NCBI GenBank assembly: GCA_009692425.1
Contig: SHZF01000008.1
Coordinates: 62,001-126,000, forward strand
Length of the DNA: 64,000 nucleotides
Reading direction: 5' to 3'
DNA from: Myxococcales bacterium
Lineage (GTDB): Bacteria; Myxococcota_A; UBA9042
The position numbers and the translations under genes were made by a program. The notes below the pieces were generated by a model. That model was not told the DNA's origin, did no database searches, and saw only the letters and a program-made list of their open reading frames with translations. Positions 5,500 through 64,000 of this stretch are shown one piece after another. Each line of letters begins with the position of its first letter. Within the stretch, counting starts at the first letter, position 1.

Positions 5500-5517
<18 letters not shown>

Positions 5518-6177
5518 ACCCACCGGACCGGGCCTCGGGCCCGGTTCGCGTTTTTGAGTGCCGCACGCGTGCGGATCGTGGGCCTCCTTGGAGTTCGGGA
5601 TGTCTGGGCGGTGTGGAACGTCCGGCCGCCGCAAGATGTCGGGGCGCCACTGGCCCGGCGAGCCCCGTTCGAGGCCGCGCAATGGTACCCGGCTCTGCCG
5701 CCACGAGGTGAGGCGCGCCCCGTCACCTTCCCCGTCGCGCCGCTCCAAGCTGACGCCCACAGGCACCTTCGGTCCCGGCCGTGCCCGCAGCCACTGCGCG
5801 ACGTCGATCGCACTGCCGCGCCACAAGAGTTCGAGTCGCCCGGCCCGATCGGGCAAGCGCATGCCGGGAACCTGGATCGCAGCGAACTGCCCGAGCGGCG
5901 TGCACAGCGCTACCTCGCCTGCCGCCACCCACGGCCGCGCCGGTCGCAGCAGGGGCGCCGCCGTGCCGTTCGGCAGTAGCAGTCGGAGATCGGCCAGCGC
6001 GACCGGTGTCGGCCCGAGGTTGGCCAGTTCGACATACTCGCCGGCCCGGTCGTCGAGCAGCAGCGGCGCGGGTTGCACCTCCGTGATCCACAGCCGCGGG
6101 GTAGGCCCAGGCTGTGCGAACCCGAGCGCTGGCCCGAGCCCAATCCATACAAGCGCCGCAAGCACAGTGCTTCGCAT
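5500..6177 (-). CDS. Exported lamin-tail-domain protein
   Basis: The 225-aa product begins with a clear signal peptide (MRSTVLAALVWIGLG then PALGFAQ), so it is exported. Residues about 28-125 match a lamin-tail (LTD) domain: W.TEVQPAP..L.D..GEYVELANLG.TPV.L.DL..LL. These are beta-sandwich modules often found in secreted proteins of myxobacteria and Bacteroidetes. The C-terminal 60 residues are basic and low in structure. The stop codon lies inside the T-loop of the tRNA on the other strand, so the last part is antisense to the terminator and tRNA. AAGGAGAC supplies the ribosome-binding site, and a consensus sigma-54 promoter lies about 60 bases upstream. Substrate or partner is unknown. Confidence 0.8.
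5527..5555 (+). terminator. Rho-independent terminator after the tRNA
   Basis: A perfect 8-bp stem, ACCGGGCC (5527-5534) and GGCCCGGT (5538-5545), closes a TCG loop. TCGCG and then TTTTT (5551-5555) follow. It would end the rplM-rpsI-tRNA transcript. Confidence 0.75.
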
Positions 6178-6236: not shown

Positions 6237-6252
6237 TGCAAGATGCGTGCCA
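6237..6252 (-). promoter_or_regulatory. Sigma-54 promoter (-24/-12) of the lamin-tail gene
   Basis: On the minus strand the sequence reads TGGCACGCATCTTGCA, an exact match to TGGCACG-N4-TTGCW with GG and GC separated by 10 bases. Initiation about 12 bases further on would give a leader of about 45-50 bases before the ATG of the exported lamin-tail protein. The rest of the intergenic stretch 6178-6558 holds the divergent sigma-70 promoter and no other feature I can support. Confidence 0.75.
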
Positions 6253-6451
6253 GCCATGGTGTCCTGGAATTGCTCAGATCTTTCGGTCACACCTGCCGGG
6301 TCCGTCTCGCACGCCGGTGAGACGCCGCGCGGGGGTGAGACGGCGATCGATGGACGTGACGCCCGGCTGCGGGGCGATCGCGACGCCAGACGAGACGGCG
6401 CGCGCCACCGAGGACATCGGCAAACCGTGTAAAGCAAGCCCACCCCGCGCC

Positions 6452-56050: not shown

Positions 56051-57136
56051 CTACTGACACCCAAACTTCTTCCCATCGAACTTGCAAGCCATCCCAGCGT
56101 CTGCGCAGTCGAGCACGGCGACCTTGCCCTGGTTGCAGAACACCCACTTGTCAATCTGGCACAGGCCCGTCGGCGGCAGCGATCCGCAGAGGGCTCCCGC
56201 CTTGGGGATGCACTCGCCCTGCGTACACGCCCAGCCCGCCGTGCACGTGCCGCAGGTCCCGCTGCAGCCGTCGTCGCCGCACTCGAACTCGGTGCCGCTG
56301 GCATCCTTGCACACCGGCTCGCACGGGCCCTTGTCGATGCAGGCAAAGGTGCCGGGCAGCGCGACGGCGTTCCACCCGCACTTCTTGCCGGGCTTGGCGG
56401 CGCAGTCGATCTGGACCTTTTGCGCGATCGTGCCGTCGCCCTGGCACTGGACGAGGATCGCGCCCTTGCACTCGCCCTCCTTCGGCACGCCCTTGCACGG
56501 TCCCGCGGCACACAGGCCGCCCGGGCCGCACACGTCGCCCACGCCGCACGAGCCGCACGCCATGCCGCAGCCGTTGTCGCCGCACTGCTTGGTGCCGCAC
56601 TTGGGCTGGCAGTCGTCGGGGTGACACAACTGGTCGTCCGCGCAATGGAACGCCGCCAAGCACCCGCCGCACTGCCCGCCGCAGCCGTTGGGCCCGCACT
56701 GCTTGCCTGCACACACCGGCACGCACACCGTCGTGCACGCCTTGCCGTCGGATTGGCACGACTGGCCCGTCTCGCAGAAGCCGCACACCGCGCCGCAGCC
56801 GTCCGAGCCGCACACCTTGCCCGTGCAGGCGCGCTTGCAGGCGGCGGCGTCGAGCGCGCCGGCCCCCTTGGCGTCGGGCTTTCTGGCGCTGTCGGCGGCC
56901 CCGTCCTTGCCGCCACCGACGCTGTCGGAAGTCACAAGGGTGTCTGCCAGGCCGTCCGTTGCAGCCGCGGCGCTGTCGCCCGTACCGCTGTCGGCCGCCG
57001 CGCTATCGAAAGCGTCGGGGGCGTCCGCGCTGGCTGGCAGTTCCTCGGTGCCGCACCCCTGCACAAGCACGGTTGCGACGGCGACGGTAGCGGCAAGCCC
57101 AGCCGCTGCGGTCGGCCAATGACGTCCAGTCCTCAC
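56051..57136 (-). CDS. Cys-rich lipoprotein with CG(N/D)GCG repeats
   Basis: The 361-aa product has a lipoprotein signal (GLAATVAVATVLVQGC), an Asp/Ala/Ser linker to about residue 95, and then repeats of C.GK.CG.(D/N)GCG..CG.C (four clear copies). These give way to a region rich in C..DG..A..C pairs. Such repeats are frequent in myxobacterial surface proteins. The GTG at 57134-57136 follows GGGGAG and directly precedes the signal; longer in-frame starts lack signals. It is divergent from the type II secretion operon and shares its 296-base intergenic region. Possible T2SS-related or independent surface protein. Confidence 0.85.
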   Translation of the reverse strand: MRTGRHWPTAAAGLAATVAVATVLVQGCGTEELPASADAPDAFDSAAADSGTGDSAAAATDGLADTLVTSDSVGGGKDGAADSARKPDAKGAGALDAAACKRACTGKVCGSDGCGAVCGFCETGQSCQSDGKACTTVCVPVCAGKQCGPNGCGGQCGGCLAAFHCADDQLCHPDDCQPKCGTKQCGDNGCGMACGSCGVGDVCGPGGLCAAGPCKGVPKEGECKGAILVQCQGDGTIAQKVQIDCAAKPGKKCGWNAVALPGTFACIDKGPCEPVCKDASGTEFECGDDGCSGTCGTCTAGWACTQGECIPKAGALCGSLPPTGLCQIDKWVFCNQGKVAVLDCADAGMACKFDGKKFGCQ

Positions 57137-57174
57137 GCGGCGCTCCCCGCCCGCCCCTTTCGGCAGGAACGCGC

Positions 57175-57204
57175 AGGATAGCGATGCCGCGCCCCGGTTG
57201 TCAT
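57175..57204 (-). promoter_or_regulatory. Sigma-70 type promoter of the Cys-rich lipoprotein
   Basis: On the minus strand, ATGACA (57199-57204), an 18-base spacer and TATCCT (57175-57180) lie about 38 bases before the GTG. Confidence 0.5.
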
Positions 57205-57316
57205 TTTGGCACACCCCGGCGGCGATCGAAGCGGCTCGTGCGCCAGCCGGACCGCTGATGAACGGCGACGCTGACACGATCGGCCTGACATTGCTAGGTT
57301 TTCTCAGTCCGCGATC

Positions 57317-57332
57317 TGGCACGCCCTTTGCT
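57317..57332 (+). promoter_or_regulatory. Sigma-54 promoter (-24/-12) of the type II secretion operon
   Basis: TGGCACGCCCTTTGCT matches the sigma-54 consensus at every defined position, with GG (57318-57319) and GC (57330-57331) 10 bases apart. Initiation near 57343 gives a leader of about 90 bases before the gspC GTG. It requires an AAA+ enhancer-binding activator, not seen in the window. Confidence 0.85.
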
Positions 57333-57432
57333 TCTCTACCAGGAGGGAACAGCACGCGTCGCCCGGACGTTCGTTCACCCCGGGCGGCCCGCAGTGGGCG
57401 CGCAGCACTTCGGCAAAGGAGAGGACCTCGGC

Positions 57433-58425
57433 GTGGAAACCCTGCTCAAGCGCCACTTCTGGCTGCTCAACCTCGCCGGCCTCGGCCTGGTGGCGTGGCT
57501 GGGCGCGGGCACCTTGAGCGCGCTGGGCGGCGTGCTGCTCGCCAACGCGACCGGCCGCATCGAGACGAAGGAGACGCTGACCGCGCTACAAGGCGAAACC
57601 GCGCTGCAGAAAAAGCTACGCGACGGCCGTGTGGGCTCGCTGGCGGGGGCCGAAATGGCGGGGCGCACGCCGTTCCTGATCGAGGAAGCCGCGCCGGAAC
57701 CGATCGACGAGCCGCCCGCAGAGCCGCCGCCTGAAGTGCCCGCCACGCCGCACGAGCCGACCTACGACCCGACGACCCTGCCGATCAAGCTGCTCGGCAC
57801 GATGGTCGTCAGCCCGGAGACGTGGTCGTCGGCGACCCTCGAACTCGAGCGGCAGAACCAGAAAATCGTCGCGCAGGGCACCGAAATCCTCGGCGGCCAG
57901 GCCACGGTCTACGCGATCCGCCGCAATTACGTGGTGCTCAAGGAAGGCGACAAGCTCACGATCGCACCGCTCTACCCGCGCGAAGGTGGCCCCTCGACGT
58001 CCGAAGCGACCCCGCCGCCCTCCCCACTGCCGACACGCTCCGAGCCCGAGCGCCAGCGCCTGGCCGATGCCGGGCCGAAGGTGGACGGCGTGCGCAAGGT
58101 GTCGGAGACGGCGTACCAACTCGACCGCAGCCACGTGAACGACAAGCTCAAGGACCTGGCGTCGCTCGGCCAGCAGGTGCGCGTGGTGCCGAACTACCGC
58201 GGCGGCAAGTACGACGGCGTGCGGCTGATCGGCATGAGCGACGAGAGCCTGTTCAAGCAGATCGGCTTCGGCAACGGCGACATCCTGATGGCCGTCAACG
58301 GCGACCGCGTCGACTCGCCCAACAAGGCGCTGTCGCTGTACGAGGCGCTCAAGAACAAGTCCCGCCTGACCGTGCTGCTGGAGCGCGACGGCATCGCCAA
58401 GACCCTGCGCTACACCGTGCGCTGA
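57433..58425 (+). CDS. gspC: Type II secretion system inner-membrane connector GspC
   Basis: GspC links the inner-membrane platform to the secretin. The 330-aa product has one N-terminal membrane helix (about residues 8-30), a Pro-rich linker, a homology region near 115-175 (LPIKLLGTMVVSPETWSSATLE), and a C-terminal PDZ-like domain near 225-325 (GVRLIGMSDESLFKQIGFGNGDILMAVNG). The GTG at 57433 follows GGAGAGG. Any start before about 57343 would precede the sigma-54 transcription start. The order gspC-gspD-gspE-gspF matches classic T2SS operons. Confidence 0.92.
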   Translation: METLLKRHFWLLNLAGLGLVAWLGAGTLSALGGVLLANATGRIETKETLTALQGETALQKKLRDGRVGSLAGAEMAGRTPFLIEEAAPEPIDEPPAEPPPEVPATPHEPTYDPTTLPIKLLGTMVVSPETWSSATLELERQNQKIVAQGTEILGGQATVYAIRRNYVVLKEGDKLTIAPLYPREGGPSTSEATPPPSPLPTRSEPERQRLADAGPKVDGVRKVSETAYQLDRSHVNDKLKDLASLGQQVRVVPNYRGGKYDGVRLIGMSDESLFKQIGFGNGDILMAVNGDRVDSPNKALSLYEALKNKSRLTVLLERDGIAKTLRYTVR

Positions 58426-58446: not shown

Positions 58447-61314
58447 TTGGTTCACCGCATCTTTCCGATCCGACGCCGCGCCCGCACCGTTGGCGCCGCC
58501 GCGTGGCCCGCCCTGGCCGGCGTGTGGCCCGCCCTGGCCGCCGTGTGGGCCACCGTGCTCGCGGCGGGGTCGACCCTGCCGCGCCCGGCCGCCGCGCAGG
58601 AGGCCACGGCAGAGCGTTCGATCCCGGTAACGGCAGGCAAGGGCACGCTGCGCAAGAAGGCCAAGGCCGACGCGATTCAGGCCGGCAGCGCAAAATCGGG
58701 CACGTTTCGCCGCAAGAAGACGCCATCGCTCGACCCCAGCTACGACCCGGCCCAGGCGACCGAAGCGCTCGACGCGCGCGGAGAACCTGCGCCGCCGTCT
58801 GACCCCGGTCCCGGTCGCCGCTTCGAGGCGCCGCCACCGCCCGCACCGGGCGATCGGGCAGCGGACCGCAACGGTGCCCCGGGCACGGCGGCCACCGACA
58901 ACGCCGACAAGAAGAAGATCGAGGACCTCGTCACCTTCAAGTCGAACTTCGAAAAGGACCTGAAGTGCAAGCGCCTGCCGCTGAACGCGAAGGTGACGCT
59001 CGACTTCCAGGAGGCGCCGATCGAGTCGGTCATCAAGCTGATGTCGTGCTGGACCGACCGCAACTTCCTGCTCGCCACGCAGAAAAGAGGGGGCAAGATC
59101 ACGATCCTGTCGCCGCAACCGGTCAGCGTCTATGAGGCCTACCGGGCGTTCCTGTCGAGCATGATGGTTAACGGCATGGCCATCACGAAGAAGGGCGAGT
59201 TCTACCACATCGTCGATACCACCGACGCGCGCGGCTCGGGCGCCGAAGTGTACGGCGGCAAGGGCAACGTGCCCGACGACGACAACATCGTGACGCGCAT
59301 CCTCCGGCTCAAGCACCTTGACGCCAAGGACGTCGAGCAGTTGATCAGCAAGTTCAAGTCCAAGAACGGGGACGTCTTCTTGTACCCGCCGACCAACGCG
59401 GTCGTCATCACCGACTCGGGCTCGATCATCCGCCGCATCCAGAAGTTGCTGCTCGACTTCGACGTCCCGCTCGGCGCCGAGAAGATCTGGCTGCGGCCGG
59501 TACAGCACATGGATGCCGCCGAACTCGTCGAGAAGGTGCAGGCCGTGTTCGGCGAACAGGGCCGGGGACCGCAGAGTCCGGGCGGCGGGCCCCCGAGCGC
59601 CAAGGTGACGATCTCGAAGATCATCGCCGACGATCGCTCGAACCAGTTGATCCTGATTGCGACGCGGGCGAACTACCTCAAGGTCGACGCGCTGATCCGC
59701 AAGCTTGACGTGCCGATCCCGGGCGAGGGCGCCGTCCACATCCACCACCTCGAGAATGCCGACGCCGAAGACGTGGCGCAGACGCTTGGTTCGCTGGCCC
59801 AAGGCGGTGGTGCGGCGGCGCGCGGCAAAAAGGGCGCGGCCAAGGGGGCGAAGGCGGGCGGTTCGAGCGCGACCCTTTTCGAGGGCGACGTGAAAATCAC
59901 CGCGCACAAGGCGACGAACGCGCTGGTCATCGAGGCGAGCCTGAAGGACTACCTGAGCTTGCAGAAGGTCGTCGCCCAACTCGATCGGCGCCGCAAGCAG
60001 GTCTATGTCGAAGCCGTCATCATGGAAATCTCGACGACGAAAAACCGCCGCACCCAACTGTCGGGCTCGGCGGGTACGACGTTCGACATCGGCGGCGAGA
60101 CGGTGCCGTTCCTGTTGGGCCTCGGCGGACTCGGCATCGGTGGCTTCGATCTCAGCCAACTCAACTCGGGCGGCTTCGCGGCCGGCATGCAAGGGCCGCT
60201 CGTCAACGTGAACACCGGCACGACGGCGAACTCGGCGGTGCCGGCGGGGGCGACGCTGTCGATCCCAGCGTTCGGCTTCATGGTCCAGGCCATCCAGGAG
60301 AATTCCGACGTCAACGTCCTGAGCACGCCCCACATCCTGACGCTCAACAACGAGGAGGCCGAAATCACGGTGGGACGCAAGGTGCCATACCGCTCGCAGA
60401 CCTCGGGCGGCGGGCTGGGTGGCCTGGGTGGGCTCGGCGCGCTCGGCAGCCTCGGTTCTTCGGCGCTGAGCGGCTTGGGCGGGCTCGGCGCGCTTGGCGG
60501 GGCGCTCGGCGGCATGGGCGCCACAGTGCAGCACATCGACGTGGATCTGAACCTGAAGATCACGCCGCAGATCAACGAGTCGGACTTCATCAAACTGAAA
60601 ATCGACGAGCAGTTGGACGAGGTGGAGGCCATCGACCCGAACCTGGGGCCGACGACGTCGAAGCGCAAGGTGTCGAATACGGTCGTCGTGCGCGATCAGC
60701 AGCCGGTCGTGGTCGGTGGCCTCGTGACGGATCGCGAGTCGTCGGGCGTGGCGAAAATCCCGGTGCTGGGCGATCTGCCGCTCATCGGCATGTTCTTCCG
60801 CAAGACGACCAAGACCATCGAGAAGAAGAACCTGATGCTGATCGTGGTGCCGCACATCATCAAGGACCCGAGCGACCTCGAGCGCCTGCACCAGCAGAAG
60901 ATGGACCAGATTCGCGACTTCGCCGAGGAACTGGCGACGAAGCAGAAGGAGTACCAGGGCAAGGTCGACTTCCGCAAGAAGGCGGGATTCTTGGAGAAGA
61001 TCTTTGGCGCCATCGACAAGATCGCGAGCGAGCGCAAGCTGACGGAGAAGGCCTATTTCGACAACGCCGACGTCGATCTAGTCGGGCCACCCGATGACCA
61101 CGATCTGGAGTACGACCCGTTCGCGGCGCCGCGCAAGGACGGCAAGGTCAAGGCCAGGGCAGGCAAGACAGTAGACGGCGACGACGACAGCGAGCCCGAG
61201 GTCGATTCGATCGATCTGCCTGACGCCGACCCGACGCCGACCGCGCCCAGGGCCGGCGCCAGCAAGTCCGCAAGCCCCGCAAGCAAGGGCGCCCGCAAGG
61301 AGCCCAAGCCGTGA
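58447..61314 (+). CDS. gspD: Type II secretion system secretin GspD
   Basis: GspD forms the outer-membrane secretion channel. The 955-aa precursor starts at a TTG preceded by GGAG. It has a signal region with a short tandem duplication, then a variable Lys/Ala/Pro stretch, N0 near residues 175-260 (VTLDFQEAPIESVIKLM), and N1-N3 with LKHLDAKDVEQLI and VHHLENADAEDV-type motifs. The secretin core at about 540-790 has GRKVPYRS and a Gly/Leu-rich stretch, and VVVRDQQPVVVGGLVTDRES near 750. The C-terminal tail of about 110 residues is charged and low-complexity. It overlaps gspE by GTGA. Confidence 0.95.
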   Translation: MVHRIFPIRRRARTVGAAAWPALAGVWPALAAVWATVLAAGSTLPRPAAAQEATAERSIPVTAGKGTLRKKAKADAIQAGSAKSGTFRRKKTPSLDPSYDPAQATEALDARGEPAPPSDPGPGRRFEAPPPPAPGDRAADRNGAPGTAATDNADKKKIEDLVTFKSNFEKDLKCKRLPLNAKVTLDFQEAPIESVIKLMSCWTDRNFLLATQKRGGKITILSPQPVSVYEAYRAFLSSMMVNGMAITKKGEFYHIVDTTDARGSGAEVYGGKGNVPDDDNIVTRILRLKHLDAKDVEQLISKFKSKNGDVFLYPPTNAVVITDSGSIIRRIQKLLLDFDVPLGAEKIWLRPVQHMDAAELVEKVQAVFGEQGRGPQSPGGGPPSAKVTISKIIADDRSNQLILIATRANYLKVDALIRKLDVPIPGEGAVHIHHLENADAEDVAQTLGSLAQGGGAAARGKKGAAKGAKAGGSSATLFEGDVKITAHKATNALVIEASLKDYLSLQKVVAQLDRRRKQVYVEAVIMEISTTKNRRTQLSGSAGTTFDIGGETVPFLLGLGGLGIGGFDLSQLNSGGFAAGMQGPLVNVNTGTTANSAVPAGATLSIPAFGFMVQAIQENSDVNVLSTPHILTLNNEEAEITVGRKVPYRSQTSGGGLGGLGGLGALGSLGSSALSGLGGLGALGGALGGMGATVQHIDVDLNLKITPQINESDFIKLKIDEQLDEVEAIDPNLGPTTSKRKVSNTVVVRDQQPVVVGGLVTDRESSGVAKIPVLGDLPLIGMFFRKTTKTIEKKNLMLIVVPHIIKDPSDLERLHQQKMDQIRDFAEELATKQKEYQGKVDFRKKAGFLEKIFGAIDKIASERKLTEKAYFDNADVDLVGPPDDHDLEYDPFAAPRKDGKVKARAGKTVDGDDDSEPEVDSIDLPDADPTPTAPRAGASKSASPASKGARKEPKP
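58504..58545 (+). repeat. 21-bp tandem duplication in the GspD signal region
   Basis: Two 21-bp units (58504-58524, 58525-58545) differ at one base and encode WPALAGV and WPALAAV in the hydrophobic core. A partial third copy (tgggcc) follows. Confidence 0.85.
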
Positions 61315-63035
61315 TCGACCCGCGCCCCATCGGCGAAATCCTGGTCGGACAGGGCCTGTGCAGCGTAGACGCCGTGCAGCAAGCCCTGCAGGTCCAGTCC
61401 GATCGCGGCGGCCTGACGGGCGATCTGCTCGTCGGCCAGGGCGCCGTCACCCGGTTGCAACTGCTGACGGGGCTCGGCGCGCAATTCGGCATGACCGTGC
61501 GACCGGCGCTCGACGAGGCCGCGATCGATGTCAGCCTGGTCGCCGCGCTGTCGATGGGTTGGGCGAAGGAATGCGAGGTGTTGCCGCTGCAGCGGAGCAA
61601 CGGCGTCATCGAGGTGGCGACGTCGAATCCCTTGCAGACGGGCGCGCTCGACGACCTGCGCGTGCTGTTTGGCGGCGCCCGCATCGAGCCCGTGCTGGTG
61701 CCGGCCGAGATCCTGACCGCGGCCATCAACCATGCGTTCGACCGGCGCGCGCGGGCCGATCAGGTCGTCGACGACATGGAGCGCCAAGACGATGCGGTCG
61801 CCCACATCGCGCTCGAACTGGAAGAAGGCGCGAAGGACATCCTCGACGAAGACGACGAGGCCCCGATCATCCGGCTGGTCAACTCGATCCTGAACCAGGC
61901 GGCCAAGGAGAAGGTCTCGGACGTCCACATCGAGCCGATGGAGAAGTTCGTCGCCGTGCGCTTTCGCAAGGACGGGGTGCTGCGCGAGGTGGTGCGGACG
62001 GCCAAGAAGTTCCAGCCGTCGATCACGAGCCGCGTCAAGATCATGGGCGGGCTCAACATCGCTGAGAAGCGCCTGCCGCAAGACGGCCGCATCCGCATCA
62101 AGGTGGCCGGGCGCGACATCGACCTGCGCTTGAGCACGATCCCGACCGCGCACGGCGAGCGCATCGTGCTGCGTCTGCTCGACAAGAGCTCGACCACGTT
62201 GGACCTGCGCACGCTCGGCATGCGCCAGCAGATCTACGAGGCGATCGTGGCGCTGGTCGAGCGACCCAACGGCATCTTGCTGTGCACGGGGCCGACCGGC
62301 TCGGGCAAGACGACGACGCTCTATTCGGCGCTGATGCTGATCAACAAGCCCGACATCAACATCTTGACCATCGAGGACCCCGTCGAATACCAGATCGAGG
62401 GCATCGGCCAGATGCAGGTGAACCCGAAGATTGAGTTCACGTTTGCCAAGGGCCTGCGCGCGACGTTGCGGCAGGACCCCGATGTCGTGCTGGTCGGCGA
62501 AATCCGCGATCTGGAGACGGCCGAGATTGCGGTGCAGGCGGCGTTGACCGGCCACCTCGTGCTGTCGACGGTGCACACGAACGACGCGGCATCGACGTAC
62601 ACGCGGCTCATCGACATGGGGCTGGAGCCGTTCCTGCTGTCGTCGTCGATCATCGGCATCCTGGCGCAGCGCCTCATCCGCGTGCTGTGCCGCGATTGCC
62701 GGGTGCCGCACCTGCCGACCGACCTCGAACTCGAGACGTTGGGGCTGAAGCGCACGGACCCCGACCTGAAGACGGCGACGTTCTATCGCGCCAAGGGCTG
62801 CCCACAGTGCGGCATGACGGGCTTCTCCGGCCGCTGCGGCCTGCACGAATTGCTCATGCCGAACGACGACATCAAGCGGTTGGTGGTCGCCAAGGCCGAC
62901 GCGAGCACCATCAAACGGGCCGCCGCCAGTTCGGGCATGACGACGCTGATGGCCGACGGTGCCTTCAAGTGCATGACAGGGGTGACGACGGTCGAAGAAG
63001 TGATGCGAATCGCCAACGTGGACGAAGAGGACTAG
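61311..63035 (+). CDS. gspE: Type II secretion ATPase GspE
   Basis: GspE is the cytoplasmic hexameric ATPase that powers pseudopilus assembly. The 574-aa protein has an N-terminal MshEN-like region and a connector (DDEAPIIRLVNSILNQA near 185). The core has Walker A GPTGSGKTTTLYSA near 326, the Asp box ILTIEDPVEYQ, Walker B DVVLVGEIRD near 394 and the His box. The zinc-binding C..C pairs CRDC and CPQC lie near 460 and 497. The GTG start overlaps the gspD stop, so translation is coupled. All catalytic residues look intact. Confidence 0.96.
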   Translation: MIDPRPIGEILVGQGLCSVDAVQQALQVQSDRGGLTGDLLVGQGAVTRLQLLTGLGAQFGMTVRPALDEAAIDVSLVAALSMGWAKECEVLPLQRSNGVIEVATSNPLQTGALDDLRVLFGGARIEPVLVPAEILTAAINHAFDRRARADQVVDDMERQDDAVAHIALELEEGAKDILDEDDEAPIIRLVNSILNQAAKEKVSDVHIEPMEKFVAVRFRKDGVLREVVRTAKKFQPSITSRVKIMGGLNIAEKRLPQDGRIRIKVAGRDIDLRLSTIPTAHGERIVLRLLDKSSTTLDLRTLGMRQQIYEAIVALVERPNGILLCTGPTGSGKTTTLYSALMLINKPDINILTIEDPVEYQIEGIGQMQVNPKIEFTFAKGLRATLRQDPDVVLVGEIRDLETAEIAVQAALTGHLVLSTVHTNDAASTYTRLIDMGLEPFLLSSSIIGILAQRLIRVLCRDCRVPHLPTDLELETLGLKRTDPDLKTATFYRAKGCPQCGMTGFSGRCGLHELLMPNDDIKRLVVAKADASTIKRAAASSGMTTLMADGAFKCMTGVTTVEEVMRIANVDEED

Positions 63036-63048
63036 CAAGGACGCACGA

Positions 63049-64000
63049 ATGCCCGTCTTCGAATACTCCGGCAAGACCTCGGGCGGCAAGACGCTCCAGG
63101 GCGTCCTCGACGTCGAGTCCGTGCGCGCGCTGAAAGCGGCACTGCGGCGCGACGGCGTCTTCTTGACCGAGTACCACGAGACGAGCGTGCGCGGCGACAA
63201 GAAGGGCAAGGTCAAGGCCGGCGTCGAGCAGAAGTCGGCGTCGCGCGATGTCGATGTGGCCGACTGGCTGACGCGCATCACGCCGATCGACGTCGCCGAG
63301 GCCACGCGGCAGTTGGCGACGCTGGTCAAGGCCGGCGTGCCGTTGGTCGAGGCGCTGCAGGCCATCGTCGAGCAGATCGAAAACCCGAAGCTCAAGCGCG
63401 TGCTGGCCCAAGTGCGCACGGACATCAACGAAGGCGCGGCGTTCTGGCGCGCCCTGCAATCGCACCCCAAGGTGTTCGAGACGACGTACTACAACATGGT
63501 TCGCGCTGGCGAGACCTCGGGCAACCTCGACGTGGTGCTGTTGCGGCTGAGCGACTTCACCGAGTCGCAGGTGCGGCTGCGCAACAAGGTGATCGGCGCC
63601 TTGACGTACCCCATCATCATGATGGGCATCGCGCTGGCGATCGCGACGGCCATGCTCGTGTTCGTGGTGCCGGTCATCACGACGATGTTCGACGACCTCG
63701 GCGCCGAACTGCCGCTCATCACGCAGGTGCTCATTTTCATTTCCAAGGTCGTCTCGCGCGGCTGGCCACTGATCGTGCTGGCGGCGGTCGGTTCCGCCAT
63801 GGCGTTCCGGCGCTGGCAGATGAGCGACTCCGGCGGCACAACGTGGGACCGCTCGGTACTGCGCGTGCCGATCCTCGGCGACCTGATCCGCAAGATCGCC
63901 ATCAGCCGGTTCGCGCGCACGCTGGGCACGCTGCTGAGTTCAGGCGTGCCGCTGCTGACCGCCCTCGAGATCGTCGAGAACGTGGTCGCCAACCGCATCC
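63049..64000 (+). CDS. gspF: Type II secretion inner-membrane platform protein GspF (partial)
   Basis: GspF anchors the ATPase to the inner membrane. The first 317 residues are present and the gene runs past the right edge. The start MPVFEYSGKTSGGKT and the DVAEATRQLATLVKAGVPLVEAL repeat region match the family. A first cytoplasmic T2SSF domain contains ETSGNLDVVL. Hydrophobic helices lie near 185-215 and 225-255, and a second domain begins with FARTLGTLLSSGVPLL. Thirteen bases separate it from gspE. Confidence 0.94.
   Translation, partial: MPVFEYSGKTSGGKTLQGVLDVESVRALKAALRRDGVFLTEYHETSVRGDKKGKVKAGVEQKSASRDVDVADWLTRITPIDVAEATRQLATLVKAGVPLVEALQAIVEQIENPKLKRVLAQVRTDINEGAAFWRALQSHPKVFETTYYNMVRAGETSGNLDVVLLRLSDFTESQVRLRNKVIGALTYPIIMMGIALAIATAMLVFVVPVITTMFDDLGAELPLITQVLIFISKVVSRGWPLIVLAAVGSAMAFRRWQMSDSGGTTWDRSVLRVPILGDLIRKIAISRFARTLGTLLSSGVPLLTALEIVENVVANRI

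Follow-up and report, generated by a model that had tools for sequence, protein, structure and literature searches.

Which RNA polymerase reads the start of the type II secretion system (T2SS) operon at the end of the window (the whole 64-kb stretch of DNA analysed here), and what would switch it on? The operon begins with gspC (57433..58425, +), which encodes 330 amino acids from a GTG start with a good ribosome-binding site (AAAGGAGAGG) ahead of it, and which scored 213.6 bits against the NCBIfam model NF041515 GspC_delta (cut-off 150). It is followed on the same strand by genes for the secretin gspD (58447..61314; TIGR02517, 458.8 bits, cut-off 351), the ATPase gspE (61311..63035; TIGR02533, 675.3 bits, cut-off 630) and gspF, which is cut by the window end (63049..64000; Pfam T2SSF, 139.3 bits, 8.2e-41). 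The curated models place GspC, GspD with its N0 domain, GspE and GspF together in one operon, which identifies it as type II secretion. About 1.1 kb of the contig remains beyond the window, and in this genome gsp genes were seen up to gspF; in relatives, further same-strand genes follow gspF (open frames at L115, L118 and L120, and a T2SSJ/N_methyl gene at L139). On the other side of gspC, a divergent gene (56051-57142, −) encodes a Cys-rich, apparently secreted protein without a Pfam match.

The sigma-54 site before gspC

The first-pass annotation had reported a match to TGGCACG-N4-TTGCW at all twelve defined positions, with GG-N10-GC spacing, about 100 bases before the gspC start. A pattern scan bears this out: the 16-mer TGGCACGCCCTTTGCT at 57317-57332 on the + strand (TGGCACG-CCCT-TTGCT) agrees with the −24/−12 consensus at 12 of 12 defined positions with that spacing, and the reported distance was a fair one, as 116 bases separate the start of the site from the gspC GTG (57433). 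The geometry of sigma-54 promoters would put the transcription start about 12 bases past the −12 GC, at 57343 (plus or minus 1-2, + strand), and the gspC leader would then be approximately 90 nt.

Such a match could be due to chance in a high-GC genome. Inside the window the statistics are weak, with two perfect matches (6237-6252, −, and 57317-57332, +) and with matches of up to two mismatches at the chance level. In the whole genome (4.94 Mb), however, there are 24 perfect matches against one for the pattern read backwards, and all but one of the 24 (L023) lie outside the ORFs called by a crude coding score (beyond the window, both ORFs and gene starts were taken from a simple codon-score script). 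We also took the DNA upstream of gspD from 40 relatives, and then from 60 more genomes across the phylum. The 420 bases before gspC were used as test regions, which gave 21 usable regions from the same family (the window included), 14 from the same class and 53 phylum-wide, and dinucleotide shuffles of the same regions served as controls. A sigma-54 site with at most one mismatch was found in 21/21 same-family, 8/14 same-class and 13/53 phylum-wide regions (shuffles 0.14, 0.06 and 0.12). The four N4 spacer bases vary among the relatives, as expected under selection on the promoter itself. Based on the genome-wide control and this conservation, a chance match was rejected, and we give it practically no weight. 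In a group of genomes in which dnaK is divergent from gspC, neither the sigma-54 site nor the palindrome described below was present (11/11 regions); the association of dnaK with the absence of both elements is correlative, and the dnaK-type lineages may be related to each other.

We also considered the possibility that sigma-54 gives only a conditional boost, while basal T2SS comes from a housekeeping promoter farther upstream or within the operon. A general secretion machine may need a basal supply, and an internal gsp promoter has been reported in M. xanthus (PMC9765219). However, a sigma-70 scan of 57100-57450 gave no match on the + strand, although such scans miss many high-GC bacterial promoters. 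We regard this arrangement as possible but rather unlikely.

An enhancer-like palindrome and a second promoter

The first-pass annotation had proposed a search for activator sites 80-200 bases upstream, and an enhancer-like palindrome does lie at that distance. When the family regions were aligned on the promoter, the palindrome TGCCAWWWTGGCAC appeared approximately 118 bases upstream. In the window this element reads TGTCATTTTGGCA (57199..57211; consensus TGNCAWWWTGNCA), departs once from TGCCAWWWTGGCA and lies 118 bases upstream of the −24 element. In the family, the spacing between the two is 116-120 bases, which is suitable for an upstream activator-type site, and we propose the palindrome as a putative activator-binding site. 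The relaxed form TGNCAWWWTGNCA was found in 21/21 same-family regions, 12/14 same-class regions and 19/53 regions of the phylum sample (shuffle means 0.03, 0.00 and 0.01). A degenerate second site with the half-site CGCCA (57241..57253) follows 41-42 bases after the first palindrome. This second half-site is in register in most family members, with TGCCA, TGACA or TGTCA in relatives, and many other Myxococcota have two full palindromes 40-41 bases apart.

The sigma-54 reading of the locus is upheld by the presence of the site before gspC in every same-family region despite the varying spacer, by the presence of rpoN in the genome (at C15) and by the palindrome at fixed spacing. Together these support the view that gspC is preceded by a genuine sigma-54 promoter with an enhancer site of its own, and that its transcription would depend on sigma-54.

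The exact palindrome is rare genome-wide, and the gsp copy is the sole exact match in three of nine genomes. In the present genome the gsp copy is a variant, and the sole exact match belongs to a second promoter, which lies before an MXAN_2561/MXAN_2562 fusion gene. In this genome and in G001, G003, G004, G005 and G007, the second promoter carries the same palindrome (exact or with one mismatch) 117-120 bases from a near-consensus sigma-54 site, and in G003, G004, G005 and G007 the fusion gene lies a few kilobases upstream of gspC. Exact palindromes at other loci in relatives (L124, L131, L136, L138, L139, L141 and L146-L149) were set aside, as no clear sigma-54 site was found at the matching distance.

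The second promoter also bears on another explanation, namely that the palindrome is the operator of the divergent Cys-rich gene and is unrelated to gsp. A weak sigma-70-like −35 element on the − strand (57204-57199) does overlap the palindrome. However, the palindrome stands at the same distance before another sigma-54 promoter elsewhere, and it is kept where an activator gene transcribed in the gsp direction takes the place of the divergent gene. An operator function of this kind seems very improbable.

An apparent signal peptide and an fn3 domain were recognised in the fusion protein, together with an internal MYXO-CTERM-like segment and, at its C-terminus, a barrel. Against NCBIfam, the protein scored above the cut-off for MXAN_2562 and below the equivalog cut-off for MXAN_2561. 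Of the MYXO-CTERM models TIGR03901 and TIGR03382, TIGR03901 was passed by the copy in this genome only (22.9 v 20 bits), and the relatives reached 15.9 v 20 and 15.8 v 15.85. The motif occupies residues 296-331 of 585 and is followed by the barrel domain, so that it is not C-terminal. MYXO-CTERM proteins depend on the T2SS (PMC11980579), and the fusion protein is a plausible T2SS client.

Other perfect sigma-54 sites in the genome

The gsp palindrome is absent from the other 23 perfect sigma-54 sites, where the search gave a single one-mismatch match, at L004, 195 bases upstream of its site. The idea that these sites and gsp form one regulon was rejected for this reason.

The same sites showed a different repeat. 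TGAGAC/GTCTCA occurs 31 times in the 24 upstream regions of 220 bases, compared with 1.9 times in mononucleotide shuffles, and only six times in the entire window (those at 6318 and 6336 are among the copies upstream of perfect sites). These repeats probably serve another activator as its enhancer. The second perfect site in the window (6237-6252, −) has two GTCTCA motifs upstream and faces an ORF (5500-6165, −) without a Pfam match. Genes for a ComM-like Mg-chelatase protein (L012) and a RadC protein (L013) also have perfect sites before them, as does one that contains a pilin-type N_methyl motif (L022), which hints that sigma-54 may be linked to DNA uptake.

The repeats lie ahead of comM, radC and most copies of a multicopy RNA element roughly 235 nt long. 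The genome has at least 10 of these elements (L005, L008, L009, L010, L014, L018, L019, L020, L024 and L250, on contigs C11, C21, C30, C33, C55, C63, C86, C87, C115 and C43), each beginning immediately downstream of a sigma-54 site with a perfect or near-perfect match. The element is structured (z = −3.4), with 10 base pairs showing compensatory changes among seven copies. An Rfam search of its loci gave no match, and among 52 relatives only weak partial matches were seen, in one. By analogy with Qrr RNAs, the element is possibly a family of sigma-54-driven small RNAs.

A candidate activator and comparison with known systems

If the gspC promoter is read by sigma-54, this introduces the question of which activator serves it. 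There are 12 strong Sigma54_activat matches in the genome. In 27 of the upstream regions analysed, an NtrC-type activator gene lies directly before gspC on the same strand. In the family studied here the activator gene lies apart from gsp, and for this reason the assignment rests on homology. The closest counterpart is L032 (G000, C45:120665-122104), on a contig other than that of gsp. Compared with nine gsp-adjacent activators, it showed 51-56% identity and was each time the best of the 12 (the next reached at most 50%); its HTH showed 45-62% identity to those of the gsp-adjacent activators. L032 has the NtrC-family architecture of a receiver domain (REC, PF00072), an AAA+ domain (Sigma54_activat, PF00158) with an intact GAFTGA and a Fis-type HTH_8 (PF02954). 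It is matched at E below 1e-100 in 20 of the 21 same-family relatives (63-75% identity in 18), and its counterparts adjoin gsp in the same-class genomes G023, G027, G031 and G039. In a quick tree, L032 falls in a family clade that joins the gsp-adjacent set with moderate support (82/93 SH-aLRT); the long-branched activator L036 of the same genome also falls in this clade, which may be an artefact according to the tool's warning, and long branches among other activators of this genome limit the grouping. Among 24 gsp-adjacent cases, a close −24/−12 match is missing in seven and the exact palindrome in 11. No sensor kinase gene was seen adjacent to L032 in this genome, and the gene that follows it is without a Pfam match. 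Based on this genomic association, L032 is probably the dedicated gsp activator and a candidate for binding TGNCAWWWTGNCA.

Alternatively, the promoter may be real and its activator another of the 12, for example an Nla28-like one. L032 is not adjacent to gsp in this genome, and Nla28 binds a promoter belonging to the T2SS operon of M. xanthus, at MXAN2511 (PMC9765219). However, the family regions before gspC show no enrichment of the Nla28 half-site CTSCGSAG (one exact copy where 1.2 are expected; 31 v 24.4 when one mismatch is allowed), and the gspC upstream region of this genome has none. What is conserved there is another palindrome, and the gspC-adjacent activators elsewhere are most like L032. 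Nla28-type regulation was rejected on the lack of half-site enrichment, and we consider it unlikely that an activator other than L032 is responsible.

Our preferred reading, which we hold to be very likely, is that sigma-54 RNA polymerase transcribes the gsp operon from its start and that a dedicated response regulator of the NtrC type turns it on. The phosphorylated regulator would bind the palindrome approximately 118 bases upstream and the weaker site 41-42 bases further on, and would loop to the RNA polymerase-sigma-54 at −24/−12, where ATP hydrolysis by its GAFTGA AAA+ domain would open the promoter. GspCDEF and the products of the following genes would then be made when the signal of the regulator is present. 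The same regulator would drive the second promoter, so that the machine and its likely client are made together. This gives a concrete prediction: one regulator, one palindrome and two promoters. More speculatively, the T2SS in much of the Myxococcota might be under an ancient dedicated two-component sigma-54 circuit, with a regulator that senses secretion demand or envelope state and co-produces the machine and a MYXO-CTERM/barrel surface protein; we think this wider reading doubtful. If it is true, then general secretion is an inducible, client-coupled function. In myxobacteria, MYXO-CTERM surface proteins, among them the kin-recognition receptor TraA, reach the cell surface by way of the T2SS (PMC11980579). 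With a dedicated activator, a defined enhancer and one candidate client under the same control, there would be a specific handle on the timing and signal of surface secretion.

Among known systems, LuxO and other NtrC-type activators with a Fis HTH share the receiver-AAA+-HTH_8 architecture and the 5-3-5 geometry of the palindrome. The LuxO site is TTGCA-W3-TGCAA. The gsp palindrome, TGNCA-W3-TGNCA, and its T2SS target are unlike the site and target of LuxO, and we claim no LuxO assignment.

In MYXO-CTERM/myxosortase sorting there is a precedent, MXAN_5598, for an internal MYXO-CTERM motif with an outer-membrane barrel after it (PMC11980579). The fusion protein is alike in having both. It differs from the sorting system in that its motif is internal and in that the relatives' motif scores are below or near the cut-off.

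The first-pass annotation had also called sigma-54 control unusual for a secretion operon. The site itself is real, but the arrangement is less unprecedented than was implied, as links between the T2SS and sigma-54 have been published (PMC12316311, PMC9765219). A survey of predicted sigma-54 regulons (PLoS One 2025, PMC12316311) reports that T2SS COGs are enriched among predicted targets, mainly in Myxococcia and less in Polyangia. This is the same link, but it is an enrichment at the class level, and the passages concerned name no enhancer site, activator or co-regulated client. The survey also cites a report that sigma-54 is essential in M. xanthus. The general link between sigma-54 and the T2SS in Myxococcota is already known; what is new here is the dedicated gspC promoter, its enhancer, the candidate activator and the co-regulated gene. 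We found no description of these four in the open-licence papers searched, and an earlier description elsewhere is possible.

The closest precedent is the Nla28 system of M. xanthus. There too, a putative sigma-54 site of a Myxococcota T2SS operon is bound by an NtrC-type activator, at the internal gsp promoter of MXAN2511 (PMC9765219), whose locus number is close to that of gspD (MXAN2514 in PMC3222651). That system has a weak site (GGGCGCG-N4-TTGCA), half-sites of the form CT(C/G)CG(C/G)AG and a starvation regulator with many targets, whereas the operon studied here has a promoter before gspC, a perfect site, a different palindrome and an apparently dedicated activator.
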